Positions 502-62,808 of a DNA stretch of 64,000 nucleotides are shown here, piece after piece. The first letter of the stretch is position 1; every line of letters begins with the position of its first letter. The notes under the pieces were generated by a model. It searched no databases, had not been told where the DNA came from, and saw only the letters and a program-made list of their open reading frames with translations. The stretch is from Orobanche coerulescens. Taxonomy: Eukaryota; Streptophyta; Magnoliopsida; Lamiales; Orobanchaceae. The position numbers and the translations under genes are program-made. Where the stretch lies: contig CM065803.1 of assembly GCA_033398695.1 (NCBI GenBank), positions 102,288,001 through 102,352,000 on the forward strand, in the 5' to 3' direction.

Positions 502-1815
502 TGTTAGGCGTATTTTTATACGCTTATTTATCATTATTTTGTAGTATTTTGGAGTGTGAAATCATCTAAATGAGCTTTTAATGCCTTAATTTTGTATGAT
601 TGACAGGAAATTGAAGTCCGGAAGCTTAAACGGTGCAAAACGGCGAAAACGGCAAAATCGACTATGAGCCGCGGCACAAGGAAGCCGAGCCGCGGCAAAG
701 GAAGACACCACCGAAGGGCGAGTGGGTCAGACTGCGTGCCGCGCACAGCCCATGTGAGCCGCGTACAGAGGGATTTGATTACGCCTGTGTATTCAGATTT
801 TGGCGATGTGCCGCGGCACAAAGACAGTGAGCCGCGGCACACTTAGCGGGTTTGGTACGTCACATGGATTTTGGGCCGTTCAAGCCGCTTTTCAACCAAC
901 TAATACGGACGTGATTTATGGAAGTCTTGAGCTATAAATAGGGCTTAAGACCCTAATTTAATCATCTGGGAATCATTGAATCTAAACCTACAAGAGAGCT
1001 TAAGCTTGGAGACAGAGAAGAGGAGGAAAGCAGAGGAATTCAAGGTATAGGCGGAAGTCAAGAACGGAGGAATCCGAGCTTCATCTGCGTTTGAATTTTA
1101 TGCTTTCGTTTATTTATTCTGTATTGTCGCTTTTAGTATGTCGTGCTAAAGCCCTAATCTAGTGGTTTTGATGAAACCTTTATTTTGACGAATTGATTGA
1201 GATTATCCAATTTATTACCTTTTTATTGAGTTTTCCCAATTATGTTTAATGCTTGCAATTATCCGCCAATAGTTGTATTGATTTAATCATTCACTTGAAT
1301 CGGGAGAGGAGATTTGGTGAGGAACTATTGGTGATGACCGTTTATTCTGTGAGATAGGAATATACTCATAGGAACTACGTGGCCTTTAGGAGATTTCATG
1401 CTTTTGCCTAGCGACGAGATAATTCACCTAGGGATAGAGTGCGTTAGTCGCCGTTAGATAAATCTATTGACCTCGGGAGAGGCGGTAGAATATTTTAGCA
1501 ATCTCCGCCTTCAATAAATTGGGAAAATTATTTATTACGGATAATCAAGATTAAATTCGGATAAATTAAGGTGGATTCAGAACTCTAGACTTATTTATCA
1601 TTTGATTCCTTTTATTCAAGCTATCGTTTTCTGTTTAGTCTTTTATTAATTCTTTTAGTTATTAATCCAAAAACCCAACTTCGATTGTTCAAATAAAATT
1701 GGAATACGAAAGCGTCGGTAGTTAGAGATTCAATCCTCGTGGGAACGATACTCTACTTATCACTTTATTACTTGTAAACGATGACGTGCACTTGCGTGTA
1801 GGAAATATCGCAACA
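502..1815 (+). repeat. 3' LTR of the Tat/Athila-like element
   Basis: This 1314-bp terminal repeat begins TG at 502 right after the polypurine tract and ends CA at 1815, where the sequence changes abruptly to element A's LTR (compare 16100 onward). A TATA box (TATAAATA) lies at 933-940, about 90 bp after a cluster of GCCGCGGC palindromes. The 3' part contains the 'gggaacgatactct...gtgcacttgcg' type of ending common in Tat/Athila LTRs. The partner LTR is outside the window, so the target duplication cannot be verified; it would be TACGT (1816-1820). Small open frames at 534-846 are only the palindrome array read through and are not genes. Confidence 0.7.
668..840 (+). promoter_or_regulatory. 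GCCGCGGC palindrome array in U3
   Basis: About six full or partial copies of GCCGCGGCAC, including a perfect 12-bp palindrome GTGCCGCGGCAC at 808-819. Neighbouring copies are 20-21 bp apart (for example 668/689 and 810/831). The array stops about 90 bp before the TATA box at 933. This is the Tat-like counterpart of the TAGCGCACGCTA arrays in the other LTR families. A regulatory role is inferred. Confidence 0.6.
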
Positions 1816-2007
1816 TACGTACGTAATACACCCTGTATAACGTACGTAACTCCATCCGTTGACTCACCTGTCCACATCTGCGCCGAAAGCTGCCGACCAC
1901 GGGCCCCACTGTCCGATTCCTCTTGTTACGTACGTTATGTACGCTATATAACGTACGTAAGCTAACACATTTTACGTACGTAAGCTCCAAGGCTTAACGT
2001 ACGTAAT
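1816..2007. promoter_or_regulatory. ACGTACGT palindrome array with 23-bp period (left LTR of A)
   Basis: Repeated TTACGTACGTAA-type palindromes. From the first copy (1817) to the next, and between the four copies around 1926-2007, the repeat distance counts to 23 bp each time, while the spacers between them differ in sequence. The same array is present in the other LTR at 16026-16287. Confidence 0.65.
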
Positions 2008-3908: not shown

Positions 3909-6609
3909 ATGGATCTCAAAGAAATAACTCTGACTGTCGAACATACCCCTCGGGCGTATGAACAACCAGTCACAAACCGTCGAACATACCCAACCATAAA
4001 TGGAGGATGAACGACCAAACAATATGGCTTAAAGATGGAAATCATAGTACGCCCGATCCGAATATGTGTCAGTGCACATGTCCACCCCGTATACGGAATC
4101 CAGGATATACGTGGGACAATGTACCTAATTAGCCTCAACGAACTACGTCTCGTGTGCACAACCTTTCACGGAAAATATTCACGCATGACTATATATGTGC
4201 CCGGCTAAAAATCCTACACAATATCCAATCGGAACGCAGATATGACTCCAGATATGTCATGATGCAACATGACAACGAAACTCAAAGAAACACATACCCA
4301 ATAAGGATCAAAAGACTCACCGAAGTGAACAACAATAGTCTGACAATGAAAAGTCGACACGACCAATCAATATTCAAAACAACAACCCTGGGATCACAAA
4401 CTCCAAAGGATAATCCATACCATCAACAATCTCAGACAACAGTTCTGGGATCGACATCCATCAACGAACAACCAATATGAATCTCAATACACGAAGCCTC
4501 AACGTACAACATATACAACAACTCAACATAATAATTATCTCATAACTGAACAATGCATAAATTACCTCAAAGTCGAAGAAAACATCCTTTCCACGAACAA
4601 TATCCCTGAACGAATACACAGTTATACGAATAATCCCGAAATAGGTATAGTCCATTTATACCAACAAACCACCATCCCGACATCAATATCGACACGATAA
4701 CTATCCTCGATATCCGATATTCTATATCCTTGACCAAAGATAACTCACGTCTTCCTTGAACACAATTAAATAATATACCTTATGATTTAATACAAACCAG
4801 AGCACGATATACAACTCATTAACCAACAATTTACCTTTATAACAACATTGCTATATGAATTATAAATGAAATGAAAACGACACCATTTACCAAATATTAT
4901 AAACTGAACAAGTATAAACTTGCCTCGATACCGATACCACGAAGCCGTTACCAAAATCCATTGCCTTTGTCTACGAGCTCCTCAGCCCCGACCAAAAGCA
5001 ATCTACGAACTCTTCGACCTCAACCGCAACACAACGGTCATAATCCATGATCAAAACATAACAACCTATTGCAATAATCAATTAACAACAATCCAATAAC
5101 AATCAATAACCAACATAGCCAACCAAGCGACTCAACGGCTCAACAATACACCGATCATAAACAAAACCGAACAATACAACTCAAACAAATACGAACTCAT
5201 ATCCACGATACAAGTCGTAACTCGATGATCACAAATAACAATCAATAACCGATCAACAAGCACAACGGTTCTACAATATCCCGATTAAACACAAATCCGA
5301 ACAACCAAATCAATCGATCACGAATTCAAAACCACAATACGATTCCACAATCCGAATATCATATCCATAATCTATTTAAACCAACAAGGGTCTAACATTA
5401 CCGATTCCAAATTCAATCTTAAAAACAATTACAAGTTTCCTCCTTGTATAATCATAATAAAACCCAATTAATTCAACAATATAGATAACCATATTCCAAA
5501 GGTTTCAAATAATTCCATTATCCGAATTGAACACTTATTCAATAAGTATGAATTTCCAAATTCAAACATGAATAATAATTCTCATCAAACTCGAAATCAT
5601 ATTCGTATTCCTATACGAATATTGTACCAAGATACATAACTTAGTTCTAAATGTGAATATTCCATATTCATATCCAAAACACCAACACTTTAAAACGTAT
5701 TCATCAAATCAATGATCAATTCATCTTGATATTAAGGATTTTATAACATATTCGATTCCAACTTCAACTCCAAATACGAAGACAAAACTCCTTCTTGTTC
5801 ATACTTGTAAATTCATAGAAAACAATTTACCGATTATTATCGTGAATAATCACATTCCAAAATTATCCGAAATCCTTCCAAAATCATAACATGTAACTCA
5901 AGAGTTCTTCGAGAACACGAATTATCCAAATTCACGTTCATAATCTATAAAACAACATAACCCGATGTTTTCAACATCTAAACAACCCTTAATCATAATT
6001 CAAGGTGTATATAATCATGTCCTTCAACATATACTTCTCATAACATCATGATTCGCAATAAACCACCAAGAACATCGAGAATACTACGATTCCACAATCA
6101 TAACAACATAATCGAATCATTTGATCACCAATTCATTATCTTCCTTTAACAAAATTCCCATAATTACCAAGAATCATTGCAAAAATATCATTTCAACCAT
6201 CATTCATACGAAAACGTGTAGAATTTTCCAAGTTCTACTCATTGAGACATTTCATCGAACACTTTGAAGGCATAGTCCAATTCAATCGATTATTCAAAGA
6301 AATACTCGAATTTGTTCCACAAAACTTCAAGAGCAACGAATAATCTCAAGAATACAACAAGGTTCCATCAATAATCTGAGTTAAAACGAATCAAATCGTC
6401 CAAAACATCAAGAAACTCCAAAAATATCCAAAACCAAGTGTTTAGGTGTTCTTACCTTCGATCCGGGTGGAAGATGATGTTAATCCATGATTCCAACTTC
6501 CAAAACATGTTGTTATAAGATGATCTTACTCAAATGCATCAATTCTTGCCGAAGGAATCGCGAAGAAACGAAGAAAAACGAAAAATGAGTAGGTGACTCG
6601 GTCCAGGCC

Positions 6610-8175: not shown

Positions 8176-8711
8176 TTTATATAGCCAGGGAGTGTTAGCG
8201 TGTGCTAATCCTCAAGGTTAGCGTGCGCTAACGGGATGAAAATACAGACCAAACAATTTGCGTCCCAGTCCAGTAGCCAGATTTCTGGCCGTTAGCGTGC
8301 GCTACTCGAAACGTAGCGTGCGCTAATAACCTCTTGGTAGCGCTCGCTATCGACCAATAGCGTGCGCTACCTGGACATCACCAGTCCAGAGCTAACCGCC
8401 CAAAACTCACTCGACCTGTTAGCGTGCGCTACCATACAAGCGTAGCGTGCGCTAACCGGCACTGACCGTTTGAGAAAACTGCCCAAGATCGAACACTCAC
8501 GCTAGCGCACGTTACTGGAAGTCTCGGCGCTAGCTCCCCGACATTAGCGTGCGCTAGACTATGTAGCGACGCTAATCCGCCGATCCGAGGGTTGGAAAAC
8601 AACACCGCCACTCCTGTGGCTAACTCGTTAGTGCGCGCTATTTAAGTAAACGTAGCGTGCGCTACTAAGGGATCTCTAGCGTGCGCTATACAGGAAATTT
8701 AGCGTGCGCTA
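8176..8711 (-). promoter_or_regulatory. TATA box and TAGCGCACGCTA array, G1 3' LTR
   Basis: About 15 copies of the 12-bp motif (plus strand TAGCGTGCGCTA, element sense TAGCGCACGCTA) between 8196 and 8711. Consecutive copies in a group are 20-24 bp apart, as at 8196/8219 and in the two groups near 8291-8370 and 8420-8455. The array begins about a dozen bases upstream of the TATA box. A few copies are degenerate, and one near 8510 is in the opposite orientation. Confidence 0.75.
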
Positions 8712-13848: not shown

Positions 13849-15949
13849 TGTAACACCCTCAATATATTCGAGGTATATTACAGTGCCGTGAATCCCTATA
13901 TGGGACCCACCAGGCTGAACAGCATCAAACACAACGACTCACAGAAACGATAAAATAACACCACGTCATAAAGACGCAAAACAGAATAATCCACCCGGTT
14001 CAACCGGTCAAACATAACATCATCAATCAACACAAACATAATAGGCAACAATACAATCCGGACGAACAAGAACTCTTAAGTACTCGAGTACTACTATTAG
14101 TTCGAAGACCACAAAAGATGAAAAGATAAAAAGACATTAAGACGTCACTGATGCACAATCATCACGCATGGCCATCATCCGTGTACTGGTCCAGCGCCCG
14201 CTCGTCCCGATGAACCTGACACAAATTCATAAAACGAATTTCCCAAAACGGGTCCCGGAGGGGTTAGCAATTACGCTAGTACAAGTAACCAAATGAACGA
14301 TTTACATCTTACACATATAGTAATGCATGCAATCAAGAAATCATAGTTCCAAAACACTCATTTCCTAAATGCCAATAATCAAACCACATTTGTAAAAATG
14401 CACCACAATTAATCATGGACCCACGCCTTCGTGGATCCTCGCGAGACCCCGTCGGATCTAACCCACAGTGGTTAAAAGCAAGCTCGCGGTTCCACAGCTT
14501 CGTGGAGCCCTACCGAGACCCCGTCGAGTCTAACCCGTAGTGAGCATACACACACACACACAATTTCTCATACAAAACTACTATGTCAAGATCGTAAGTT
14601 CATAAGGATACTTGCCTCGATTAAATAGACGACGACACGAACGGAACGGAAGAATCAAGCACGACCGCGAGGAACCGACGAAAATGAACCTAACGATTCG
14701 AATAACATCATCACAACCACTCCTAAACGATTACGGAAATAGAATACACCCGAAAACCCGCCTACGATTCATGTATATTCGTACAAAAATAACAACGAGG
14801 GCGGACCACAACCAAACCCTCTCGATTTCGCAAAACCATGAAAATATACCATGAATCCATAGGAAAACTAATTATACCAACAAGATTAATCATATTCATC
14901 ATGAATCCACCAACAAAACGAAACGGATCGGAAGAAAATCCCAAAACCCCCAAATCGCCCAAAAGTAGGGTTCTAAGAGATTTACCGTGGATTAGGACGA
15001 AAGATTCGTGTTGATGTTGATATAATACTCCAAGAACTCAAGAAGGATGTTGGATGAGATGATTGGAGGAAGAAATCGCCAAGGAGATCGCCCCGGAATC
15101 GCCTTCGCCGCGGAGAGAGGAAGAAATGAGGATTTATGTTTATCTCGGTCAACTCCCTGGTTTATATAGCCAGGGAGTGTTAGCGCGCGCTAATCCTCAA
15201 GGTTAGCGTGCGCTAACGGGATGAAAATACAGACCAAACAATTTGCGTCCCACCAAAGAGCGTATTGGCCGTTAGCGTGCGCTACTCGAAACGTAGCGTG
15301 CGCTAATAACCTCTTGGTAGCGCTCGCTATCGACCAATAGCGTGCGCTACCTGGACATCAGCCGAGTCCAGTAGCCAACTGCCCAAAACTCACCTGACCC
15401 GTTAGCGTGCGCTACCATACAAGCGTAGCGTGCGCTAACTGGCACCTGACCGGTTTCAGTAGAAAACTGTCCAGTACTGAACACTCACGCTAGCGCACGT
15501 TACCTGGAAGTCTCAGCGTGCGCTAGCCCCCGACATTAGCGTGCGCTAGACTATGTAGCGTACGCTAATCCGCCAGTCCAGAGGGTTGGAAAACAACACT
15601 GCCACTCCCAGGGCTAACTCGTTAGCGCGCCATTTAAGTAAACGTAGCGTGCGCTACTAAGGGATCTCTAGCGTGCGCTATACAGGAAATTTAGCGTGTG
15701 CTAGATACAGAATATAAACGGCCCAAAATACCGGAATATGAACGAAATGTTAAACAGAATATCTCAAGACGCATCGAAACATGGAATGGATCCACGGCAA
15801 CCCCGAAACGGCGGTTCCGCACAACAATTACGAGAATCAGATTAATAGATGACGGAAAAGTTACACTGAAGGATACACGAGAGTCGCTACAATCGAGAAA
15901 TACACCGAAAATAACAATACAAGGGAAAGAAAAAAATGCGGATATTACA
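13849..15949 (-). repeat. 5' LTR of G1
   Basis: 2101 bp, TGTAACACCC...ATTACA, partner of 6863-8958. Differences between the two LTRs sit mostly in patches such as 15248-15270 against 8263-8290 and 15357-15480 against 8380-8500, where CAG/CTG in one copy reads CGA/TCG in the other. The conserved hairpin block is at about 14250-14290. Confidence 0.85.
15160..15703 (-). promoter_or_regulatory. TATA box and TAGCGCACGCTA array, G1 5' LTR
   Basis: TATA is the complement of TTTATATA (about 15161-15168). The array covers 15181-15703 and begins with the perfectly symmetric TAGCGCGCGCTA at 15181. It matches the array of the other LTR copy by copy. This is the copy that would drive transcription of G1. 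Confidence 0.75.
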
Positions 15950-16596
15950 GGCCATCCCAACGAGTCACGTCCGGCCATGCTCGGCCATCCAGGTCATCTC
16001 GGCCACGACCCGGTCAGCCGCCCCGTAACGTACGTAACACTTAATCCGTTGCGTACGTAATACGTACGTTGACTTGCTACAGTATAATACTCATATTACG
16101 TACGTAATACACCCTGTATAACGTACGTAACTCCATCCGTTGACTCACCTGTCCACATCTGCGCCGAAAGCTGCCGACCACGGGCCCCACTATCCGATTC
16201 CTCTTGTTACGTACGTTATGTACGCTATATAACGTACGTAAGATAACACATTTTATGTACGTAAGCTCCAAGGCTTAACGTACGTAATGACTTTTATACA
16301 TAGCCAAAAATCCAACTATTCCTGTTCGACGTCTCGACGTACAAAATACAAACATATGGCATACTGAATACACATACTGAATCCAAAAATATTCTCATAC
16401 GATATACCTGATATCCAAATCAGTTCAACCTGATACAACATATCCTGAATATATCTGTCAATCAAAACGATAATCACACCAGCATAACTGTCTCGGTTCT
16501 CAATTTATTTTATCCATACTGTATAGATACCAAACTATACAGTATATCTCAGATAAAATAACGCGAAAAATTTATACTGAAAATCCGGGTATTACA
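15950..16596 (-). repeat. Right LTR of element A, second part with U3 array
   Basis: Continuation of the LTR broken by G1. It contains the ACGTACGT palindrome array (16026-16287) with exact 23-bp steps in its right half and ends ATTACA at 16596. The five bases after it, CCGGA, are the expected target duplication but the left partner is outside the window. Confidence 0.75.
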
Positions 16597-33573: not shown

Positions 33574-34014
33574 TAGCGCACGCTACGGCCGGAAGGCTGT
33601 GCGCGCTAACCGGCAGGTGTAGCGCACGCTATCGGCTGGCCTAACGCACGCTATCGGGTCTGGGCAGTGGGGTTCTGAGGTTCTGGACTCGGTCAGGATC
33701 GGCAGGTAGCGCACGCTACTGTCGGTCGTAGCGCACACTAACCGGCAGGGGTAGCGCATGCTGCCGGCCGACTAGCGTACATTACCTGGGTGAGTTAGTT
33801 AGTCCAGAGGCTACTGGACAGGTCGGCTAGCGCGCGCAGGCTTCCGGCCGTAGCGCACGCTAGCGGGAGTCGGGCGGACAGTCAGGGTCGGCAGAATTGG
33901 TCGGTGGTGCCGGGTCATGCGGGCCATGGCCGAGAGTGCTCGGCCGATACTGGCCGATAGCGCACGCTAGTCCGGGAAGGCTAGCGCACGCTAGTTCCGG
34001 CCCAGTATATATAT
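33574..34014 (+). promoter_or_regulatory. TAGCGCACGCTA array and TATA box, E1 5' LTR
   Basis: About 12 copies between 33574 and 33993, spaced 22-24 bp in groups (33574/33598/33621 and 33958/33982). TATATATAT at 34005-34014 follows the last copy by a dozen bases. A partly matching AGTCCAG...CTACTGGAC inverted repeat lies near 33798-33822. Confidence 0.75.
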
Positions 34015-37050: not shown

Positions 37051-37847
37051 CATGTAATTTTTCTGATATGTTCTGTTGTTGTCTCTGTGGGTCATTAGCG
37101 CACGCTATGCCTTGCGGCTAGCGCGCGCGAGAGTGCGTTGGTAGCACGCTAAGGGGAGGATAGCGCACGTTACCTGGTAGTTCAGGGCAGTCCAGGAGCT
37201 ACTGGACTGGGTCTGAAGTTCTCGTTAGCGCACGCTAACACTTGGGGTTAGCGCACGCTAACAGTGTATTTTGGTCAGGAGTTCTGTTTGATGCCGTGAT
37301 AGCGCACGCTAACCTTAATGATTAGCACACGCTAATTGTGTCCAGTATAAATACTGACACCAGTCTAGAAGTTGCATTTTTCTTCATTTCTTCTTCTTCC
37401 TCCATGAGTTTGAGACGTAGCGACTAGGGTTCGCATCTGGGCTGATTTTTCTTCCATCCAAAGGTGTTTTGGAGTATACTAGATGATTTTTAACATCATC
37501 TAATCCATTGTTCTTCGCCGAATCTAGGTATTTTCTTGAATCCCTAGAGTTGACTTTTTGGAGTTTTGTTCTTGATATCGTTTTCCATCCAGTTTTGATA
37601 AACCGATTGTTTTTTTAACGATGTTGTTAAACATATCCTAAGGATTGTATAACACTGTCGTGATTTTGAGCGATTTTATGCGTGTGATATGATGTGTTTA
37701 AGTGAATGTTGATACGTGCGAATTTTGGGCATTTTGGCCTATTGTACTTCTGAAAAACATTGGGTATCTTAGATAATAAACCTCGAGACATACTTTTAAA
37801 ATGAATTATTTTCTCACAGTGTTCTCAAGATGCCTACTAGCGCCACG
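37051..37847 (+). repeat. Truncated gypsy-like LTR with U3 array
   Basis: Begins about TGTAATTTTTCTG. Palindrome array 37096-37334 (pairs 23 bp apart at 37096/37119 and around 37227-37334), TATAAATA at 37346-37353, then a leader with 'gactagggttcgc'. Cut at 37847 by the copia sequence. The continuation may be 59038-59400, beyond the copia pair. Confidence 0.55.
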
Positions 37848-38141: not shown

Positions 38142-38191
38142 AATAAGCTTACTACTCAAAACATCAAAAATCCTTGATTCAGATCACTCGC

Positions 38192-38446
38192 TAGCGCGCG
38201 CTAGCTTCATTTTTCTTAACGCGCGCTAATCACTCCCTTCGATAGCGTACGCTAAACCCTACTCTCTTGCGTACGCTAATTAAAGTTTTTTGAATTCCAT
38301 TGTAGCTACTGGACAGTACAGTAAGCCTTTCTTTTCTGCCTAACGTACGCTAATCTTATAAACCCTAGCGTACGCTAACTTAAAGTTCGTTGACTATATA
38401 TATGCCGTACTACCCAGGCACACAAACACACTTCCTAACGCACGCA
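38192..38446 (+). promoter_or_regulatory. U3-like palindrome and TATA module before the C1 extra ORF
   Basis: Between pol and the extra ORF there are six copies of T(A)RCGYRCGCTA (38192, 38217, 38243, about 38269, 38341, 38366), spaced 25-26 bp in groups, then TATATATAT at 38395-38403 and one more partial copy at 38436. The extra ORF's ATG is at 38525. The layout mirrors the LTR promoters. The same module is kept in C2 at 55504-55757. Function as an internal promoter is inferred. Confidence 0.6.
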
Positions 38447-39060
38447 ATTGACTGAAAATTCTCATCTTGCCAAAAACCCTAGCCGTTAATCGGTTTCTCC
38501 AAACTTCAATTCCTTCTCCGATTAATGTCGAGCAAGAACCACACAGCCATGGCAAAACAATACAACAACCTCAAACTGTAACACCCCGAGATATTCGGAA
38601 TAATTACAGCGCCGTAAACCCTTTAAGTAAGGATTTACAAGGCTAATTAAAAAGGGAAGTAAATATAAGACATCAATACTGCGAAACTTCAAGTTTATGA
38701 AAACGTACAACTGGTTCAACGGTTAATTAATACAACCATATCGAATTAATAACAAAAGGACACGCGTACTCGAGTACAGAAACCAACCCAAGAAAACAAA
38801 TCTCCAATAACAATAAACATCACTGAACCCCTTCGTCGTCGCTCGCATCAGGTCGCCTCTCCGCTCCTTGGCTACCTGAACATAAAAAACAAATGTCCAC
38901 CCCCGAAGGGGTTAGCACAACGATGCTAGTACAAGTATCATATTAAACAATTCGAATATGCATCAACAATACATAACAAGATACATCACACGGACTTCCG
39001 CTACCGGAATCCGACAATGCGAATCTACAAGATTCCATTACACAGCATGGGTATTCCAAT

Positions 39061-39591: not shown

Positions 39592-39778
39592 TAGCGCGCG
39601 CTACGTACTCTACGTAACGTGCGCTAAGTCGATCATAGCGACGCTATCGCATAAGACTAGCGTGCGCTAGCCACGAATCGGCGCCCGACTTATTGCCTCA
39701 TAACGTACGCTACGTACGTTTTGTGCGAAAACTGAACCTCGATAGCGCACGTTAACTCACACATGTTAGCGTGCGCTA
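39592..39778 (-). promoter_or_regulatory. Second palindrome cluster in the G2 LTR, downstream of TATA
   Basis: Seven copies or variants of the motif (for example TTAGCGCGCGCTA at 39591 and TAGCGTGCGCTA at 39767), about 670-860 bp downstream of the TATA box in the sense direction, inside the transcribed LTR. The matching cluster is at 46827-47018. No other family in the window has the motif in this position of its LTR. Confidence 0.6.
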
Positions 39779-40447: not shown

Positions 40448-40762
40448 TATATATAATAAATGGCTATTAGCGCGCGCTAGACCCTGTTCGTAGCGTGCGC
40501 TAACGGCTCACAGTCTAAACTGTACTTGGCACTTAGCGTGCGCTACGCATAGACCTGTAGCGTGCGCTAAGGCGTTGACTCGGCTTTTCCCGAAAGCCGT
40601 CCAGGTACATCCTACATGATCCGACAGGGGTCCCCCGGCCAGATCTCACCTACCGCACGTCTCAATCAATCTGACCACGCATAGCGTGCGCTAATTACAC
40701 TCGGTAGCGTGCGCTATGAAACCATGTTAGCGTACGCTACCCGTAGCCTGTAGCGTGCGCTA
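40448..40762 (-). promoter_or_regulatory. TATA box and TAGCGCACGCTA array, G2 3' LTR
   Basis: Eight or so copies between 40468 and 40762, with steps of 23 or 24 bp: 40468/40491, 40533/40557, and four copies at 40682-40762 with three successive 23-bp steps. TATA follows the array by about 10 bp in the sense direction. The partner array is 47708-48002. Confidence 0.78.
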
Positions 40763-45801: not shown

Positions 45802-45806
45802 TATTC

Positions 45807-48154
45807 TGTAACACCCCGAGATATTCGGAATAATTACAGCGCCGTAAACCCTTTAAGTAAGGATTTACAAGGCTAATTAAAAAGGGAAGTAAATATAAGA
45901 CATCAATACTGCGAAACTTCAAGTTTATGAAAACGTACAACTGGTTCAACGGTTAATTAATACAACCATATCGAATTAATATCAAAAGGACACGCGTACT
46001 CGAGTACAGAAACCAACCCAAGAAAACAAATCTCCAATAACAATAAACATCACTGAACCCCTTCGTCGTCGCGTCGGTACTGTGGCTGTCTCCCTGCTCC
46101 TTGGCTACCTGAACATCAAAAACAAATGTCCACCCCCGAAGGGGTTAGCACAACGATGCTAGTACAAGTATCATATTAAACAATTCGAATATGCATCAAC
46201 AATACATAACAAGATACATCACACGGACTTCCGCTACCGGAATCCGACAATGCGAATCTACAAGATTCCATTACACAGCATGGGTATTCCAATGATCCAG
46301 CGCCCTCAGCATAGATCCCAAGATGATCCCGTCGGACCAACACGAGGTGGAAATAACCCATCCAATGATCCAACGCCCTCAGCCTAGATCCCAAGATGAT
46401 CCCGTCGAACCAACACGAGGTGGACATCCGATCCAGCGCCCTCAGCATAGATCGTACAACGTATACAAACACAACTCATGCATACACATATGCCAAATCA
46501 TTATGTTTATCAACATGAACATATAAACACCATATAACGAATATCATGACAAATCAACGAAGTAAATATCATGTTCAACAACATGCATAATCATACGCAT
46601 ACTCCAAAAATACCGATATTAACATATCACGATACTTGCCTCGAAGATGGCAAGAACGATACACTTCAATGATCTCAACCCACTCGAAGGTCGCCTCCTT
46701 CGATCAACGTAGCAAGCTCGAACCTTAACAAAAGGAATGATATACAAATAATCTCAAGTCGAACCATGGCCTAACAATTCGGCCTACGGCCGAAAAACTC
46801 AAAATAAACAAGCTGCCTGGATTGCTTAGCGCGCGCTACGTACTCTACGTAACGTGCGCTAAGCTGGACTGTTAGCGTACGCTATCGCATAAGACTAGCG
46901 TGCGCTAGCCACGAACTGGCAGTCTGACTCGGCTGTCTCATAACGTACGCTATTTACGTTTTGTGCGAAAACCGAACCTCGATAGCGCATGTTAACTCAC
47001 ACATGTTAGCGTGCGCTAATATTGCATGGCAGAATACTGCAAACCGAAAACTGGGTTGAATGGTGAAGAACTCATGAATCCTATGGTGATATTACAAGTT
47101 ATCCTCGGGCATATCATGCTAATAAGGTTTCTGGAAGATTTATGATTATGAAATACCAATATACGGATAGTTATCTCAATATCACAATTCCTCTACGATC
47201 TTCAAGAAATAATCTAAGTTCCATCGTCTTACGTTCCAAAACACATGATTCCAACGTATACAACGTATCAACTGGGTAATATCTGATTACTTGATCATAA
47301 ATCGATTTAAACATGCTTAGGAGTCCTTATAATAAGATGGTTCAAAGGTTCATTCGATATCTAGTACCGATACGTCAAAAGTATCCTTCTAACATGTGAT
47401 GACCGATAAAAACGAAATACTTGCTATCCAAACATGATTCAAACTTCCTTAGGAACCTTACTAATCATTGGTGAAGAATCACCTACCTCAAAGTAGTGAA
47501 GAACACGGATGAAAATGAAGCAATCCAACACCGAAGGCTTGAACACCAATCTCCAATGATGTATGATCTTCAATCTCGAACTAGGAGGTTGATACGGAGT
47601 GTTTAGGACGAAGGGAGTTATGTTCTAAGTGTCAAAGTTCGGGTTGTGGGAGGAGAAGGAACTGAAATCACGAATAGGATGCTGTCCTATATATAATAAA
47701 TGGCTATTAGCGCGCGCTAGACCCTGTTCGTAGCGTGCGCTAACGGCTCACAGTCTAAACTGTACTTGGCACTTAGCGTGCGCTACGCATAGACCTGTAG
47801 CGTGCGCTAAGGCGTTGACTCGGCTTTTCCCGAAAGACATCCAGGTACATCCGACATGATCCGACAGGGGTCCCCCGGCCAGATCTCACCTACCGCACGT
47901 CTCAATCAATCTGACCACGCATAGCGTGCGCTAATTACACTCGGTAGCGTGCGCTATGAAACCATGTTAGCGTACGCTTCCCGTAGCCTGTAGCGTGCGC
48001 TACATGCACAGAATTTCAATCTCTATATCACATATACGAAATTATACGCTCGACAACATCGGATAATGAAATACAGAGAATAGTACTCATACAAAAGTAC
48101 AATCATTACAATATCACAAGTTCCAAATACATAACAGAAATCTCGGGTATTACA
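45807..48154 (-). repeat. 5' LTR of G2
   Basis: 2348 bp, partner of 38577-40914. Differences are few and clustered, for example 46858-46885 and 46915-46945 against 39630-39655 and 39675-39710, where CTG/CAG in this copy reads TCG/CG in the other. Confidence 0.9.
46827..48002 (-). promoter_or_regulatory. Two palindrome clusters and TATA, G2 5' LTR
   Basis: U3 array 47708-48002, TATA (complement) about 47688-47698, and the second cluster 46827-47018 in the transcribed portion. The spacing equals that of the partner LTR (23-24-bp steps in U3). Confidence 0.72.
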
Positions 48155-49357
48155 CAAACGACCTCTCAACGCCCAATTTGATGCGAATCGTTTCATCTCC
48201 GCCACCGCCTCGAGGGTTTTCTTTGACATTCTTCCACAGGAACACATCACCGACTGTTACTTCTTCAATCTCTCAAGTCTAGAACGGGTAAACGTCGATA
48301 TTTCCAATTTCTTCTCCTCGCTTGGTATTTCCCGTTTTGTCGAATGCAAAAACCCCATCTTCCCTGAACTCGTCCGAGAGTTTTATGCCAACCTCCATGT
48401 GGCCGAAAGTGAAGGGTCTTCAGCCCTTGTTTTAGGAAGTCTTGTCGGAGGAACTTGGGGGTGAAAGTTTCTTCAGATGTTTTGTATCAGATTTTTGGTT
48501 TACCCTGTGATGGTTTTGTTTGTACTGGAAAATATTTGGCCGATGATAATGAAGTCGGTGAAATAGATGTGAAAGAGTTTCTTAGTTCAAAGGCCGTTAT
48601 TGACATAACGGACGACTTTTTCGAAAACAACGATTTTGGAGTCAATATTCGCCTGCTTTTGGTAGCTCTCACGAAATGCCTAATGCCTAAGGTTAATTCC
48701 CAGCACAAACTAGTGGGAGTGGACAAGCAAGTGGTGTATCGCGTTCTCAACGACGATAAAGTTAATTTTTCCGATATCATCATCAGTTGGATGAAGGTGA
48801 AGGGAGACTTGTTTCGGTCGAAAAACTACGCTTCTCGTTCTCGCAAGGCTGGAATGCCTTATGGCTCAATCCTCTCGGCCATTTTCAGTTTTCACCAAGT
48901 CGACTTGTCGAAGGACAAGGCAGTCCCCGTCTCCCTTGGTCATGAGATCTCGGATGCTTCGCTTAAAGCTATGCACTATGTCCGGACGTCCAACAGAGGC
49001 TGGATCTTTTTTCCGTACCTACGCGACGATGACCAAGTAGAGAAAGGGTCGCGGATGCCTACTGCAGAAGAAAAGATCACTCGTCGGGGACCTCATACCC
49101 TTCGAGAAATGCGGACCGGGGAATTCGTAAGGAAGCCTACGTCGAAAGGAAAACGCCCAATGAGAGATGTGGTGACGGAAGAAGAGGAGAGCGACCTTTG
49201 TGCTCGGATGCGGGGCATCGAGACCTCTCAGGCTGAGATACGAGAGGATGTTCGGGCTCTGCGTTCGGAAGTCCGGGAAGTGCGTGGGCTGATATCCGAG
49301 TTCATTCGTTTCACACACCCCTCGTTCCCTTTCCCTTCGTCTTCTTCCGATCCTTAG

Positions 49358-49745: not shown

Positions 49746-51295
49746 TGTTGACTCAAAATGTATTTTGATGATTATTACATTCAAAACATTTAATTAGATC
49801 AATCTCGGCTCGATAATATTTTGAAGGAGCAAAATAGAGCTAGCGCACGCTACTCATCATATAGTAGCGCACGCTATCGGGACATACATATACAGACCAG
49901 TCAAGTCAGCTGCAGCCTAGTGAAGTCGCCTGATCGATAGCGCACGCAAGCTATTCAATGTTAGCGCACGCTAAGAACCTACAGTTAGCGCACGCTATAC
50001 AGTAAAAATAACGCACGCTATCGTATTTCTCCAGGTCGGTGAAGTGCGGAAGGAAATCGAATCGGATGTTGCGCACGCTACACATATCATTTTACGTACG
50101 CTAAAGCAAGGATATAGCGCACGTTACTGCTCATCTCTAGCGCACGCTACCAATATTATGGTCAGTAGTCCAGTAGCTACTGGACTCAATTCGTTAAGGC
50201 TTTTACGTACGCTACACAAGGTAACGTACGTTAATGAAAGAACTCAGTAGCGCACGCTAAGGTAAAGGCATTAGCGCACGCTAAAAGGAGTCTGCATACT
50301 ACCGTTTGAATTTCAACCGTTGGAAGGCAAGAGTCAATGCAGATCCGGGAAATCTGGAAAAGTTGGATTTAATTAATGCTAGCGCACGCTATGCATACTT
50401 GCTAGCGCACGCTAATCATAAATTTAGCCGTTGGATAAAGAGTCGTTGGAGAGAAAATCGGACATTGTCAAAGTCAAAATCGAAGACTAGTTGACCAGAC
50501 GTTAACGCACGCTACCACTACATTACTAGCGCACGCTAGACATGGTATTTTACCGTTGCAACAGTCTTTGTGACCGTTCAGAGATTCCAAGTCAAAAACC
50601 GATAGCGCACGCTACAAGGAACTATTAGCGCACGCTAATAGTATGTTTTTCAGCATTTGAAGGATGGATCTCACCTATAAATACCCGAAGGACTTGGGTA
50701 TCAAACACACAACTTCAAGCATTCAAGCATACAAGCATACAAGCAATCAAAGCATACTTGAGCTCAGTTTTACATCTTTTATTGCATTACAAGTTGTGAG
50801 AAAAGAAAGATACAAGAGTGATTCTCATTGTAATATCTATTATTCTTTGTATTCTTTCATTTGGTTGTAAGTGTTGCATCACTTACACTTGAGCGTAAAA
50901 GAAACGAATCAAGAGTCACTAATCCGGTGTTATTAGGATCTTTGATCCGGCATTGTTAGGATTATACTCCCATATTCGTATAGTGAGGATTATCTAGTTC
51001 CTATAGAACACTAGATAAACAATCATTTATATTGAGGGAAAGGTTGAGCTTGGACCGATAGAAGACAAGCGATTGTAACGGTTGTGAACTCGGACCGATA
51101 GAAGACGAGTTAAGTTTGTGGTTTTTCTTAAGCCAATAGAAAAAGAAAGTCGGAGAGAGGACGTAGGCAAGTTGCCGAACCTCTATAAATTCTTGAGTCT
51201 TTATTTCGCACTATTTTCTATTTACTCGCAAGAAATTTCGGTATTCCGCATCACCACTATTCAACCCCCCTTCTAGTGGTGAATTTATCTCTTCA
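49746..51295 (+). repeat. LTR shared by copia units C1 (3') and C2 (5')
   Basis: 1550 bp, TGTTGACTCAAAATG...ATCTCTTCA, followed by the PBS of C2 and preceded by the PPT of C1, so it serves both units. TATAAATA at 50676-50683. A long palindrome array fills U3 (49841-50637). Confidence 0.9.
49841..50683 (+). promoter_or_regulatory. TAGCGCACGCTA array and TATA box, shared copia LTR
   Basis: About 20 copies or variants from 49841 to 50637, mostly TAGCGCACGCTA with some TAACGTACGTTA-like forms. Steps of 23-24 bp recur (49841/49865, then four copies around 49937-50020). A perfect 20-bp palindrome, AGTCCAGTAGCTACTGGACT, sits at 50167-50186. TATA at 50676 follows about 40 bp after the last copy. Confidence 0.78.
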
Positions 51296-51297
51296 GT

Positions 51298-55454: not shown

Positions 55455-55503
55455 AATAAGCTTACTACTCAAAACATCAAAATCCTTGATTCAGATCACT
55501 CGC

Positions 55504-55757
55504 TAGCGCGCGCTAGCTTCATTTTTCTTAACGCGCGCTAATCACTCCCTTCGATAGCGTACGCTAAACCCTACTCTCTTGCGTACGCTAATTAAAGTTT
55601 TTCGAATTCCATTATAGCTACTGGACAGTACAGTAAGCCTTTCTTTTCTGCCTAACGTACGCTAATCTTATAAACCCTAGCGTACGCTAACTTAAAGTTC
55701 GTTGACTATATATATGCCATACTACCCAGGCACACAAACACACTTCCTAACGCACGC
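55504..55757 (+). promoter_or_regulatory. U3-like palindrome and TATA module before the C2 extra ORF
   Basis: Same arrangement as 38192-38446: palindromes starting at 55504, TATATATAT at 55707-55715, ATG of the extra ORF at 55837 (130 bp from the box). Kept intact in both copies while the ORFs themselves have picked up lesions. Confidence 0.6.
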
Positions 55758-55836
55758 AATCGACTGAAAATTCTCATCTTGCCAAAAACCCTAACCGTTA
55801 ATCGGTTTCTCCAAACTTCAATTCCTTCTCCGATTA

Positions 55837-57070
55837 ATGTCGAGCAAGAACCGCACAACCATGGCAAAACAATACAACAACCTCAAACGACCTCTCAACG
55901 CCTAATTTGATGTGAATCGTTTCATCTCCGCCACCGCCTCGAGGGTTTTCTTTGACATTCTTCCACAAGAACACATCACCGACTGTTACTTCTTCAATCT
56001 CTCAAGTCTAGAACGGGTAAACGTCGATATTTCCAATTTCTTCTCCTCGCTTTGTCGAATGCAAAAACCCCATCTTCCCTGAACTCGTCCGAGAGTTTTA
56101 TGCCAACCTCCATGTGGCCGAAAGTGAAGGGTCTTCAGCCCTTGTTTTAGGAAGTCTTGTCGGAGGAACTTGGGTGAAAGTTTCTTCAGATGTTTTGTAT
56201 CAGATTTTTGGTTTACCCTGTGATGGTTTTGTTTGTATTGGAAAATCTTTGGCCGATGATAATGAAGTCGGTGAAATAGATGTGAAAGAGTTTCTTAGTT
56301 CAAAGGCCGTTATTGACATAACGGACGACTTTTTCGAAAACAACGATTTTGGGGTCAATATTCGCCTGCTTTTGGTAGCTCTCATGAAATGCCTAATGCC
56401 TAAGGTTAATTCCCAGCACAAACTAGTGGGAGTGGACAAGCAAGTGGTGTATCGCGTTCTCAACGACGATAAAGTTAATTTTTCCGATATCATCATCAGT
56501 TGGATGAAGGTGAAGGGAGACTTGTTTCGGTCGAAAAACTACGCTTCTCGTTCTCGCAAGGCTGGAATGCCTTATGGCTCAATCCTCTCGGCCATTTTCA
56601 GTTTTCACCAAGTCGACTTGTCGAAGGACAAGGCAGTCCCCGTCTCCCTCGGTCATGAGATCTCGGACGCTTCGCTTAAAGCTATGCACTATGTCCGGAC
56701 GTCCAACAGAGGCTGGATCTTTTTTCCGTACCTACGCGACGATGACCAAGTAGAGAAAGGGTCGCGGATGCCTACTGCAGAAGAAAAGATCACTCGTCGG
56801 GGACCTCATACCCTTCGAGAAATGCAGACTGGGGAATTCGTAAGGAAGCCTACGTCGAAAGGAAAACGCCCAATGAGAGATGTGGTGACGGAAGAAGAGG
56901 AGAGCGACCTTTGTGCTCGGATGTGGGGCATCGAGACCTCTCAGGCTGAGATACGAGAGGATGTTCGGGCTCTGCGTTCGGAAGTCCGGGAAGTGCGTGG
57001 GCTGATATCCGAGTTCATTCGTTTCACACACCCCTCGTTCCCTTTCCCTTCGTCTTCTTCCGATCCTTAG
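55837..57070 (+). pseudogene. C2 extra ORF (retrotransposon-borne 'putative plant transposon protein' type)
   Basis: ATG at 55837 ('MSSKN'). A TAA at 55903-55905 and a 14-base deletion near 56055, both by comparison with C1, break the start; from 56114 the frame is open to 57070 (318 codons). The domain resembles the plant 'putative plant transposon protein' family: 'PELVREFYANLHV' upstream, then 'SSDVLYQIFGLPCDGFV' and 'VNFSDIIISWMK'. The C-terminus is coiled-coil-like. No signal peptide or membrane helix is evident. Role in the element's life cycle unknown. Confidence 0.75.
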
Positions 57071-57458: not shown

Positions 57459-59037
57459 TGTTGACTCAAAATGTATTTTGATGATTATTACATTCAAAAC
57501 ATTTAATTAGATCAATCTCGGCTCGATAATATTTTGAAGGAGCAAAATAGAGCTAGCGCACGCTACTCATCATATAGTAGCGCACGCTATCGGGACATAC
57601 ATATACAGACCAGTCAAGTCAGCTGCAGCCTAGTGAAGTCGCCTGATCGATAGCGCACGCAAGCTATTCAATGTTAGCACACGCTAAGAACCTACAGTTA
57701 GCGCACGCTATACAGTAAAAATAACGCACGCTATCGTATTTCTCTAGAGGTCAGTGAAGTCTGGAAGGAAATCAGAACTGGATGTTGCGCACGCTACACA
57801 TATCATTTTACGTACGCTAAAGCAAGGATATAGCGCACATTACTGCTCATCTCTAGCGCACGCTACCAATATTATGGTCAGTAGTCCAGTAGCTACTGGA
57901 CTCAATTCGTTAAGGCTTTTACGTACGCTACACAAGGTAACGTACGTTAATGAAAGAACTCAGTAGCGCACGCTAAGGTAAAAGCATTAGCGCACGCTAA
58001 GGTAAAGGCATTAGCGCACGCTAAAAGGAGTCTGCATACTACCGTTTGAATTTCAACCGTTGGAAGGCAAGAGTCAATGCAGATCCGGGAAATCTGGAAA
58101 AGTTGGATTTAATTAATGCTAGCGCATGCTATGCATACTTGCTAGCGCACGCTAATCATAAATTTAGCCGTTGGATAAAGAGTCGTTGGAGAGAAAATCG
58201 GACATTGTCATAGTCAAGATCGAAGACTAGTTGACCAGACGTTAACGCACGCTACCATTACATTACTAGCGCACGCTAGACATGGTATTTTACCGTTGCA
58301 ACAGTCTTTGTGACCGTTCAGAGATTCCAAGTCAAAAACCGATAGCGCACGCTACAAAGAACTATTAGCGCACGCTAATAGTATGTTTTTCAGCATTTGA
58401 AGGATGGATCTCACCTATAAATACCCGAAGGACTTGGGTATCAAACACACAACTTCAAGCATTCAAGCATACAAGCATACAAGCAATCAAAGCATACTTG
58501 AGCTCAGTTTTACATCTTTTATTGCATTACAAGTTGTGAGAAAAGAAAGATACAAGAGTGATTCTCATTGTAATATCTATTATTCTTTGTATTCTTTCAT
58601 TTGGTTGTAAGTGTTGCATCACTTACACTTGAGCGTAAAAGAAACGAATCAAGAGTCACTAATCCGGTGTTATTAGGATCTTTGATCCGGCATTGTTAGG
58701 ATTATACTCCCATATTCGTATAGTGAGGATTATCTAGTTCCTACAGAACACTAGATAAACAATCATTTATATTGAGGGAAAGGTTGAGCTTGGACCGATA
58801 GAAGACAAGCGATTGTAACGGTTGTGAACTCGGACCGATAGAAGACGAGTTAAGATTGTGGTTTTTCTTAAGCCAATAGAAAAAGAAAGTCGGAGAGAGG
58901 ACGTAGGAAAGTTGCCAAACCTCTATAAATTCTTGAGTCTTTAAATTCCGCACTATTTTCTATTTACTCGCAAGAAATTTCGGTATTCCGCATCACCACT
59001 ATTCAACCCCCCTTCTAGTGGTGAATTTATCTCTTCA
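57459..59037 (+). repeat. 3' LTR of C2
   Basis: 1579 bp, TGTTGACTC...CTCTTCA. Longer than its partner mainly by one extra palindrome unit near 57980-58010. The following bases GGTGC (59038-59042) would be the target duplication, but the left partner has been deleted. Confidence 0.88.
57554..58423 (+). promoter_or_regulatory. TAGCGCACGCTA array and TATA box, C2 3' LTR
   Basis: Array 57554-58377 and TATAAATA at 58416-58423. One palindrome unit with its spacer (about 27 bp, near 57985) is duplicated relative to the other LTR, showing that the array changes by unit gain or loss. The 20-bp palindrome is at 57883-57902. Confidence 0.75.
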
Positions 59038-60401
59038 GGTGCTTGCAAATTATTTTCAAAAGGTGGCTTTTGTTTTCAAAACCTATCATTTCTATTTGTG
59101 GTCCGGGAATATATGTGTGATGTTCGTACTCTCGTTAGGGTGTTAACCCCCGAGTTGTTGTTGAATTGGTGGTGTGAGCGTTGAGTCGTTCGCCACACAG
59201 TTGTCGTGGTAGCCTCTGTGAGGGGTGTGATGTTGGTATTGGATGTTGTCGCCTCGTAGCGGTTTATGCGTTATCGCATGTATGCGAGCTGTTAGAGATC
59301 GGGTTAGTATGATTGTGTGCATCGGTTATTGTTCCGCGTTGTGTCGGTTGCTTGTTGTATTGTTACCTTGGTTCCGTTGTTGTGAGTTTCGGGGGCGAGG
59401 TCAAAGGTAATACCCGTACTATTTCGACTTCTATATTTTCTCTTTCTCCAGTTTATCGATTCGCTCGTGTTCATTGATACCTTCTGAACTTGTTCCGTAC
59501 CTTGGTTTCATCGTTCGAACGAGCTGTAATCTAGTTTTGAGTCGATCTGGTTATCGCTGTGACTTTTCCGAACTCGGTTCGACTATTGTGAACCTTGTTC
59601 GGAAGTAACATCTTTTGGTTCTAATAGTTCTTTTATTCGAAGTGGATCAGATTTTGAACTTCTGTATTTTTGGCTCTATCGACTCGTTTATGCTCGTTAA
59701 CATTTCTGAACTTTCCCTATCCCTTGCTTTTGTTGATCGAACGAGGGTGGTATTGTTTCGGAATAACTCGTCTGTCGTTGTGGCTTTTCAATCGCTATTC
59801 CTTTTCCTGTGGATCTTATAGGAATGCACATCTTGCTGTTCTCACCAGGTCATCCTGGGAGTTGTTGTTTGAATTTTATTATCCTATGTGTTTCGGACAT
59901 GATTGTTCGATTTTTGTTGTCTCAATCGTTTATTTGTTCGGTTTTTGTTTTCGTTTCGTGATTGTTGAGCGTTCAGGCTCCTTCGTAATTCCCTTAAGTT
60001 CGGGAAATTAGTCTCGTTTTCGATCTTCCAACCCTTGGGCGGTGGAATTCCATATTTGTTCAGCGTTGACTCGCGTTTTGGTTGATGAACCATTGGGTTG
60101 GTCAATTGTATTGATTTTCGTTCGTTGAGTTTTGTGATTGTTCGGATAATCGACTCGATTGTATTGTCTATTTTATGACGCTTGTCACTCGTTGAATTTA
60201 TTATGTCTCTACCGGTGGCGTTGTGTTAGTCGCCCTGGAGCGTATTTTCACGCCGTATGTCTCTTTGCGTTTCTTGCAGCGTTTCGCCGTCGGGCGCGAG
60301 TTTTCGGTTTTTGTGTATCTCGTTGAGTTTTCCTGGCGAGATATTGCTTCTCCCTACTTGTTTTAAGTTTCGGGACGAAACTTCTTTTAAGGAGGGTAGA
60401 A
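59038..60401 (+). other. Noncoding 3' interior of E1, with polypurine tract
   Basis: 59038-59400 resembles the R/U5 part of a gypsy LTR ('ctcgttagggtgttaacccccgag') and may continue 37051-37847. 59455-59590 and 59675-59790 are a decayed direct repeat about 220 bp apart. 60360-60401 'gtttcgggacgaaacttcttttaaggagggtagaa' matches the G2 sequence beside its PPT and is the E1 polypurine tract. The open frames at 59615-60105 and 60226-60630 have no family signature. Confidence 0.55.
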
Positions 60402-62808
60402 TGTAATATCCGCAATTTTCGATTTTCGGTAAATTTCTTTTTTCAGCCGGAGTCCGTTTTGACGACTCGCTCATGACCGTTTCGTCATTCTGAGAATGAT
60501 TAATTCTACACTTTTTGTCATCCGAGTTCGTTTCGGTGTTGTTTTGTTGAGTTCCGTGCTTTTTAACGACTTTTCCGTACTTGAGTTCGATTCTTGCGAA
60601 TCTCGTCAAGCTAGCATTTCGAGTTTCCATAAGTCTGTTTAACTTTGTTAGACGTGTTGTGAACTTCGGTTTGGTTATTCGATCACGTATCGTGATTTCC
60701 GGGCGTTTTGGGCCATTTTGTAATTTCTTGAAAGTTACGGGTATCCGTATCTGTAGTTGTTGTCTCGACCCGTTTCTTGGTCGCGTATGATTAATTATGG
60801 TATTATGTTTTCATTTCGGGCGATTGATGTTGTCCGCGAACTTTTCGTCGTGTTCGTTCCGTACATTTTCGGAATTCGGGTCGTCGAGCCCTGGTGGTCG
60901 GGTACTGGCCGGACGTTTGCGGGACTGGCCGAACGATTGCGGGCACCGGCCGGACAGGTGCGGCAGGAACCGGCGTAGCGCACGCTACGGCCGGAAGGCT
61001 GCGCGCGCTAACCGGCAGGTGTAGCGCACGCTATCCCGGCCTAACGCCTTATTCTCCAGTGCAGGCGGTGGGGTTACGAGGTTACGGACTCGGTCGGGAT
61101 CGGTAGGTAGCACGCGCGCTCGTCGGTCGTAGCGCACGCTAACCGGCGAGGGTAGCGCACGCCGGCCGACTAGCGTGCGTTACTGTGTGAGTTTGTTAGT
61201 CCGGAGGCTCTTTGGGCCAGTCGGCTAGCGCGCGAGCCTTCGGCCGTAGCGCACGCTAGCGGGAGTCGGGCGGACGATCGGGGTCGCGGGGTGGTCGGTG
61301 GTGCCGGGTCATGCGGTCCATGGCCGAGAGTGCTCGGCCGATACTGACCGATAGCGCACGCTAGTCCGGGAAGGCTAGCGCACGCTAGTTCCGGCCCAGT
61401 ATATATATGACAGACCATCGACTTTTCATTCATTTTTCATTTCCTTTCTCTTCGGTCCGCGGCTGGGGTTTTGGAGGAGACGAAACCATCTTGTTGGACA
61501 TCAAATCCATGAAGTTCTTGAGGTTATATCGTTGATCAATCATTCTATAACATCCTTCGATCCAGCGAATCAAGGTTAGATCTTTAGAACCCTACTTTTG
61601 GGGAGATTTGGGGGTTTTCGCGTTTTTGTCCGATTCGTTCCGTTTTATCGATTAATTCATGATGAATATGATTAATCTTGTTGGTATTCTTAGTTTCCCT
61701 ACGGATTCATGGTATATTTCGTGATTTTTACGGAATCGAGAGGGTTTGGTTGTGGTTCGCCCTCGTTGTTGTTTATATACGAATATACATGAATCGTAGG
61801 CGGGTTTTCGGGTGTATTCCAATTCCGTATTCATTTAGAAATGGTTGTGATTGTATTCTTCGAATCATTAGGTTCGGTTTCATTGGTTCCTAGCGTTCGT
61901 CGGTGACTTTCCTTTCCGTTCGCTGCGTCGTCAATAATTTAAGGCAAGTATTTTTGGAAACCTTTATGCTTAACGTGAAATGGTAATGTATATTGTGTGT
62001 GATTTGCTCACCTCGGGAGGGTCCGACGGGATCACGGAGGGAATCTATGGCTTCATCCTGGATTCATGAGTTTGTTTCGCTAGCCAGCTCGGGAGGGTCC
62101 TTAGAGGCCTCGAGTGGGATTCGTGGCTTCGTCCCGGTCCTAGGTGAAGTGTGGTGCTTGATTTGTTTTATGAATGTGGCCAGCTCGGGAGGGTCCTTAG
62201 AGGCCTCGAGTGGGATTCGTGGCTTCGTCCCGGTCCTAGGCAAATTAATTGTATTTGTTTGTTTCCAGAAAAAGACATGTCTGGTTTTGGCTTTTGAAAT
62301 TGATATTGGTGCATGTACTATGAAATGTGTAAGCGATTGGTTTGCCTTGAATACTTGTACTAGCGTAATTGCTAACCCCTTTGGGGACCCGTTGTCGGGG
62401 AAATTCTTGTTATGGATTTCAGGTTATGTTCAGCCAGACGAGCGGGCACTGGGATGGTACGAGGATGTCGGCCAAGGTTGTTGACATGTGCAATTGAGTC
62501 TTGTTATTTCCTACTGTCTCTTTTGATGTGGATGTTTTCCAAATTGTAAACTTATAGATTGTACTCGCGAGTACTTAGGCTTTTCCTTTCGGATTGTGAT
62601 TGGTCTTCGTTGGAGTTACTGTATTTGTCGGTTGATGTTTATTATGCCGGTTGTACCGGACGTGTTGTTTTATGTTCTTGTTGTTAACAATTGTTTCCTT
62701 CCTAACCGAGACGGTTAGTCGAGAGATGTTTTCTTGTGTTAGCCTGGTGGATCCCATGTAGGGGTCCACGGCGCTGTAATACACCTCGAATATCTTGGGG
62801 GTGTTACA
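60402..62808 (+). repeat. 3' LTR of E1
   Basis: 2407 bp, partner of 32997-35413. The GC-rich U3 differs from the partner far more than the rest: at 61030-61300 CAG/CTG in the 5' LTR appear as CGA/ACG here. The 96-bp tandem repeat is at 62083-62240 and the conserved hairpin block at about 62350-62400. Confidence 0.88.
60976..61408 (+). promoter_or_regulatory. TAGCGCACGCTA array and TATA box, E1 3' LTR
   Basis: Array from 60976 to 61387 with TATA at 61400-61408. Copy number and order correspond to the 5' LTR, though several copies are damaged. Confidence 0.7.

Follow-up and report, generated by a model that had tools for sequence, protein, structure and literature searches.

Palindrome arrays with a common step and helical phase in Ty3 and Ty1 retrotransposons of Orobanche coerulescens: a probable two-motif promoter or enhancer module

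Why should unrelated long terminal repeat (LTR) retrotransposons carry the same short palindrome, at a regular step, ahead of their TATA boxes? The question is raised by a 64,000-nucleotide stretch of Orobanche coerulescens DNA (assembly GCA_033398695.1, contig CM065803.1; here C3, positions 102288001-102352000), hereafter the window, in a 3.646-Gb assembly of 1279 contigs. Among 28 of these contigs, C1-C19 are 138-237 Mb long, C20 is 5.1 Mb and the others are smaller; numbering seems to follow length. An earlier, sequence-only reading had described periodic arrays of CG-containing palindromes in the U3 region of several of its LTR families. We followed these arrays through the window, through a 264-kb read sample (the window plus twenty 10-kb pieces, L001-L020, taken at round coordinates from contigs C1-C14) and by motif counts over the whole assembly. 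Elements were assigned by self-alignment, Pfam and tblastn. Genome-wide counts were compared with those of the same letters reversed, and sample counts with 20 dinucleotide shuffles of the 264 kb; where individual genome matches are described, they are the first 100 listed, a non-random set from the start of contig C1. Our analyses indicate that the arrays are probably helically phased, two-motif promoter or enhancer modules, predicted from their letters to be bound by a common nuclear factor.

The palindrome is very abundant. TAGCGCACGCTA, an imperfect palindrome with CA at its centre, usually on the sense strand, occurs 1,017,744 times in the assembly (510,633 + 507,111), against 56 (23 + 33) for its control, and TTACGTACGTAA occurs 170,680 times (control, 255). 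The degenerate form TWRCGYRCGYWA, which contains the core CG-YR-CG, has 338 strict copies in the 264-kb sample compared with a shuffle mean of 0.4, so that motif density exceeds that of shuffled sequence, as the sequence-only reading had expected. By hand count, this form covers 112 of the 121 window matches of a near-palindrome search with two CGs. Fifteen of the twenty sampled pieces contain the motif (203 copies in total) and, simple repeats aside, the most frequent ten-letter word in the pieces is AGCGCACGCT. The earlier claim that one motif spans both superfamilies also holds: Pfam and tblastn assign carriers of the motif to Ty3 (elements G1 and G2) and to Ty1 (element E1).

Neighbouring copies keep a characteristic step. 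Over 40 arrays of the sample, 129 of the 289 neighbour intervals are 23 or 24 bp, while random placement gives 11.9 ± 3.3 (maximum 26 in 2000 trials); the spacing reported earlier is thus borne out, including three successive 23-bp steps at 40682-40762. Genome-wide there are 251,942 motif pairs 1-31 bp apart (control, 0), with 46 at 23 bp and 41 at 24 bp among the first 100 matches listed. The middle slot of 45-48-bp steps holds a slightly decayed copy (one or two mismatches) in 16 of 19 cases (random places, 15 of 1260), which argues that the lattice is continuous and that copies decay in place.

Longer intervals follow the helical repeat. Those above 30 bp cluster near 42-45, 53-54, 63-65, 73-76, 83-84, 104-108 and 124-125 bp, with others between. 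When relaxed copies are admitted and arrays sharing an interval pattern are counted once, which leaves 23 arrays and 69 intervals, R is 0.448 at a period of 10.4 bp, compared with 0.03-0.04 at 23 and 23.5 bp. A scan of 7-40 bp in which values were taken once per array group (72 values, 17 groups, formed by similarity of the motif-masked arrays) has its best period at 10.3 bp (R = 0.41), and none of 1000 uniform draws attains the observed maximum of the 9.5-11.5-bp band; this test is a guide rather than an exact probability, because the groups are defined from the sample itself, some elements yield two of them, and near-equal values within a group are counted apart. Among 100 listed long genome intervals, 19 rows selected visually for having no inner motif (the first of which holds a decayed copy) give R = 0.46-0.48 at 10.0-10.5 bp and equally 0.48 at 9.5 bp, a subset too small to tell these periods apart by itself. 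As a 23-24-bp step corresponds to 2.2-2.3 turns, each copy is offset from its neighbour by roughly a quarter of a turn and is not strictly aligned with it. The suggestion of protein sites on one face of the helix therefore survives for intervals above 30 bp, quantised at 10.3-10.4 bp, and for a second motif locked in one-turn steps, but not for direct neighbours.

Masking the palindromes reveals this second motif: 20 of the 40 arrays contain ACTGGAC (reversed letters, 0). CTGGAC is often one half of a dyad, AGTCCAGTAGCTACTGGACT, within which CTGGACT lies at 50180..50186 (+) in an E1 LTR; it is present in Ty3 and Ty1 elements, and an array internal to E1 carries a CTGGACA version. Palindromes flank 52 CTGGAC sites at a distance of no more than 120 bp on either side, a set that counts LTR pairs and both dyad halves; 51 of the 52 fall in gaps of at least 51 bp. 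CTGGAC stands 31-32 or 40-43 bp past the start of the preceding palindrome at 36 of the 52 sites and lies 13-14, 22-24, 32-34 or 43 bp ahead of the next at 39; for the total gap, R is 0.73 at 10.0-10.4 bp, compared with 0.10 at 23.5 bp. Genome-wide, palindrome and CTGGACT are paired 48,469 times (control, 0). Among the first 100 matches listed, the offset from the palindrome start is 31-32 bp in 36, 40-43 bp in 58, 37 bp in 3 and 44-45 bp in 3; these matches comprise 76 distinct spacers in 15 clusters, 14 of which fall in the two bands (26% expected).

The palindrome also has a preferred distance to TATA. TAGCGCACGCTA is followed by TATAAA within 30 bp at 38,654 places in the genome (control, 1), and among the first 100 matches listed the TATA run lies 9-13 bp past the motif in 96 (58 distinct spacers, 19 clusters). 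Within the sample, 7 of the 17 array groups have one or more members with TATA[AT]A 11-14 bp past the final copy, and GACA occurs within 8 bp past TATAWA in 19 of 35 array-linked boxes, compared with 8 of 796 others. Array-linked TATA is often directly followed by GACAG (e.g., from 40455 downward on the minus strand, and at 34006-34020).

In the window, U3 arrays occur in several elements. G1 (Ty3, minus; LTRs 6863-8958 and 13849-15949) has them at 8196..8711 (-), where TATATAAA lies 12 bp past the last, decayed copy, and at 15181..15680 (-). Those of G2 (Ty3, minus; LTRs 38576-40914 and 45806-48154; chromodomain match under the Pfam cut-off, 21.1 of 25.1 bits) are at 40468..40762 (-), with TATATATA 12 bp after, and 47708..48002 (-). 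Each G2 LTR has a second array, at 39592..39778 (-), about 0.7 kb downstream of the G2 TATA, and at 46827..47018 (-), both lacking TATA[AT]A within 45 bp; second downstream arrays, likewise lacking it, are also seen in the G2-type LTRs of L015 (1518-1731, 8824-9039). G3 (plus; LTRs 32996-35413 and 60401-62808), whose LTR resembles that of G1 in part, has arrays at 33574..33993 (+), with TATA 12 bp past the last copy, and 60976..61387 (+). An LTR fragment carries one at 37096..37334 (+), its last slot being a decayed copy, TAGCACACGCTA, with TATAAATA 11 bp on. E1 (Ty1/copia, Sirevirus-like; true LTR 49746-51295, the other starting at 57459) has arrays at 49841..50637 (+), with 20 strict copies and TATAAATA at 50676, and at 57554..58377 (+). 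Element A (1816-2315 and 16097-16596; assigned to the minus strand by its polypurine side) has TTACGTACGTAA-type arrays, given no strand of their own, at 1815..2006, cut by a Tat-like element, and at 16026..16287, followed by a 76-bp flank and then G1. The earlier description of U3 regions filled with CG palindromes thus fits G1, G2, G3, E1 and the fragment at 37096, the units being 12-bp near-palindromes, which are also present in A; it fails for the Tat-like LTR, with only four copies, and for a supposed LTR called copia C (37847-38576 and 55160-55888), which is instead the RNaseH end of E1 and the intergenic stretch ahead of an extra open reading frame (ORF).

The repeats that the sequence-only reading took for the LTRs of E1 and copia C are one 3.9-kb unit of E1, comprising the RNaseH end, an array-bearing intergenic stretch, the extra ORF, several polypurine tracts and the LTR proper; such units flank the E1 gag-pol start, one per side, and G2 is inserted in the first. 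Pfam matches run from copia gag through integrase and RVT_2 to the extra ORF, which follows RNaseH in the ENV position (partial, 48455..49357 (+) and 56114..57070 (+)). Polypurine tract copies (GGGGGAG) precede the 3' LTR at 49591, 49621 and 49737, and at 57304, 57334 and 57450. The internal arrays lie between RNaseH and the extra ORF at 38192..38447 (+), in the unit that G2 cuts at 38576, and at 55504..55759 (+) in the downstream unit. The latter has six copies (55504-55689), TATATATA at 55707 and a further copy at 55748-55759, before the extra ORF region begins. A search limited to proteins that share short words with the query gave 27 protein relatives of the extra ORF, each of them from Orobanche minor, O. 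gracilis or O. hederae. The aligned Orobanche relatives are 370-438 amino acids (aa) long, nearly all with PF20167, and an alignment of 22 rows (the three species and the window) has a mean column identity of 69%.

Taken together, the motifs and their arrangement suggest a mechanism. A dimeric nuclear DNA-binding protein may occupy the 12-bp dyad TWRCGYRCGYWA, and a second factor CTGGACT, often half of the dyad AGTCCAGnnGCTnCTGGACT; the sites would form a helical lattice leading, in the best-defined group, to TATA 11-14 bp past the last site, and cooperative binding along the helix would recruit the transcription machinery. Common regulatory input would then act on Ty3 elements and on a Sirevirus-like Ty1 element, and in E1 the same arrays ahead of the extra ORF could act as an internal promoter. 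A single host protein would be the simplest candidate for the factor, because two superfamilies have the motif in common. The motif could have reached them by convergence, with gradual accretion under selection, or by an old capture with later divergence of the spacers; either would account for the arrays.

Several observations weigh against this reading. The sequence-only claim that each array stops just before TATA stands for the 7 groups with the 11-14-bp distance but is too general: 9 of the 17 groups lack TATA[AT]A in the 45 bp past the final copy, some of these being cut fragments or internal arrays, and the 38 bp that separate the E1 TATA from the last site put it about half a turn off the 12-bp class. 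TATA is about 92 bp beyond the palindromes in the Tat-like LTR. In the internal E1 array two copies flank a TATAAA at 55669 and the TATATATA TATA is also inside the array, with one copy past it, so that an internal promoter is plausible but its TATA is not cleanly downstream. Element A has no TATA, its left array being cut at 1815 and its right one having a TATA-free flank of 76 bp before G1 interrupts; L008, which falls in one group with A because their spacers are similar, has TATA at 13 bp. TTACGTACGTAA is rarely near TATAAA (1,750 of its copies; control, 35). The inverted motif also precedes TATAAA (28,745 vs. 0; 40 of the first 100 matches listed at 9-13 bp), so orientation is only a bias, roughly three to one as estimated from the listed matches, and the genome listings themselves are a non-random set. 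We know of no plant factor that fits the dominant TAGCG half-site, and to our knowledge none of the SBP (GTAC), BZR (CGTGYG), CAMTA and FHY3 cores fits all motif variants. NAC factors were rejected as candidates: in the passages describing their sites (PMC4081100), TTACGT half-sites of our minor motif class hold the TACGT core, but the dominant TAGCGC and TAGCGT half-sites lack T[G/A]CGT, and the NAC palindrome is CGTN7-8ACG rather than CG-NN-CG.

Tandem U3 activator boxes drive plant LTR transcription in Tnt1 and Tto1, with few copies and in one family each. A closer precedent is known from Sireviruses, in which palindromic arrays precede both TATA and ENV. Passages of Bousios et al. 2010 (PMC2829016) describe repeated motif (RM) boxes, short CG-containing palindromes that number 8-32 in each element and occupy the upstream part (half) of the LTR ahead of TATA, with a further cluster before the ENV gene, a gene that is not in every Sirevirus; the RM core is CGG-CCG in 12 of 13 elements, and the boxes are there termed Sirevirus-specific and absent from classic copia elements. 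E1 is similar in that its palindromes cluster before TATA and ENV (one internal copy lying past TATA), and, like Sireviruses, it has multiple polypurine tracts before the 3' LTR and an ENV-position ORF after RNaseH. It differs from that description (PMC2829016) in its core, which is that of TWRCGYRCGYWA (CG-YR-CG) and not CGG-CCG, and in that the motif is also in the Ty3 elements G1 and G2 and so is not restricted to Sireviruses. In open-licence literature we found neither a description of this array in Ty3 elements nor any report of helical phasing, of a CTGGACT partner or of such scale, and among the papers listed for the motif letters none looked relevant by title and abstract start. The present arrays extend the 2010 observation on Sirevirus palindromes beyond Ty1/copia and give it a physical rule.

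Could the regularity have another source? The 23/24-bp steps would be expected of a 23-bp satellite or slippage product inherited together with its spacers. Adjacent 11-bp spacers are, however, only 22.7% identical (24 pairs), not above the 27.2% between arrays, and none reaches 70%, which excludes recent duplication of a unit; long intervals also follow 10.3 bp and not multiples of 23. That spacers differ while motif and period are kept was noticed from the letters, and it refutes descent from one shared satellite as far as recent duplication goes; a very old duplication followed by saturation is possible, but we consider the satellite explanation very unlikely. The first step equals the size of 23-24-nt small interfering RNAs (siRNAs). 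That their production or targeting sets the period was a weaker idea of the sequence-only reading and is extremely improbable, with no 23.5-bp phase past that step (R = 0.04 over the 69 intervals).

Two explanations invoke a protein of the transposons themselves. The foamy-virus protein Tas, a regulator encoded by an element and acting on its own LTR and internal promoter, is the model for one: the E1 extra ORF product would bind the motif in the E1 LTR and internal promoter, and Ty3 families would parasitise it. The presence of the same array in the LTR and before the extra ORF, and the good conservation of that ORF, are consistent with this, but its protein shows no DNA-binding domain above cut-off, only PF20167, of unknown function, and its AlphaFold model is of low confidence (mean pLDDT, the per-residue confidence score, 58.7). 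In Sireviruses, boxes before ENV are reported with quite different cores (PMC2829016), which simple co-regulation explains, and we regard an E1-encoded regulator as unlikely. Anti-silencing of the kind exerted by VANC proteins of VANDAL transposons appears similarly improbable; here the motif would recruit a transposon-encoded remover of silencing, and unrelated elements that gained it would be freed in trans. Excerpts on VANC targets (PMC5735166, PMC10398659) describe short tandem motif arrays in noncoding transposon DNA, with the VANC6 motif also in the unrelated AT9TSD1 (PMC5735166), and every array motif here has two or three CpGs. VANDALs are DNA transposons, though, with other VANC21 and VANC6 motif sequences (YAGTATTAY and AGTTGTCC/AC), and the same excerpts make no mention of TATA or helical register; a fixed TATA distance and helical phase better fit promoter assembly. 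CpG differences between paired LTRs affect 23 of 214 motif sites and 123 of 748 others, which is little sign of protection. A larger comparison (23/214 vs. 241/1005, Fisher p ~1e-5) was not relied on, because it includes L009 (a doubtful pair at 77%) and L008 and L019 (whose aligned part lacks the motif); 123/748 is the set without these three.

The promoter or enhancer module thus remains our preferred explanation. A bolder version of it, which we consider rather unlikely, is that one trans-acting factor, possibly the product of the Sirevirus ENV-position ORF, would run a regulon of more than one million sites, unrelated Ty1 and Ty3 families having converged on or captured a phased two-motif code and being co-activated in one cell type or stage. 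If there is one factor, a large share of its possible genomic sites would be in retrotransposons, which would bear on the co-activation of unrelated elements and on the large size of this genome. Because the promoter grammar recurs among many unrelated spacers, statistics and reporter assays can test it in ways that single enhancers do not allow.

The Tat-like LTR has two GCCGCGGC palindrome pairs at 666..840 (+), with TATAAATA at 933. Of the 20-21-bp step previously noted there, 21 bp is confirmed within the pairs, but only four GCCGCGGC copies are in the window; window and sample together give 17 intervals of at most 80 bp between these palindromes, 10 of which measure 21 bp. The palindrome GTGCCGCGGCAC occurs mostly as pairs 21 bp (two turns) apart, at 5543-5709 and 9654-9863 in L006, 5794-5877 in L008 and 666-840 in the window, and these pairs are possibly the same grammar with a different motif.

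A second CG palindrome, GTACTCGAGTAC, has a single copy in each LTR of G1 and G2, close to the downstream end (7093, 14079, 38766, 45996), with a G3 version, GTACTCGCGAGTAC, at 35166 and 62561, also near the downstream end of the LTR; both are possibly an R/U5 signal. A palindrome of the GTACTCGAGTAC type is also present at 29777, just outside an LTR of S, and TACTCGAGTA is over-represented in the sampled pieces too. S is a Ty1/copia element (LTRs 17595-19000 and 28222-29628) without a TAGCG array; a list of its repeated 8-mers, the only search made for a private motif, gave nothing convincing. Its extra ORF (1091 aa, ENV position) has a weak PF20167 match (E = 2.1e-5), under the curated cut-off. 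CpG observed/expected ratios are 0.9-1.2 in 12 of the 20 sampled pieces (range 0.43-1.32) and 1.04 in the window, seemingly high for a repeat-rich plant genome. The window also contains a tandem pair of about 0.8 kb per copy (29999-31611, 94% identical) and a partial CACTA-type transposase (63335-63979; Transposase_21, E = 1.4e-67).

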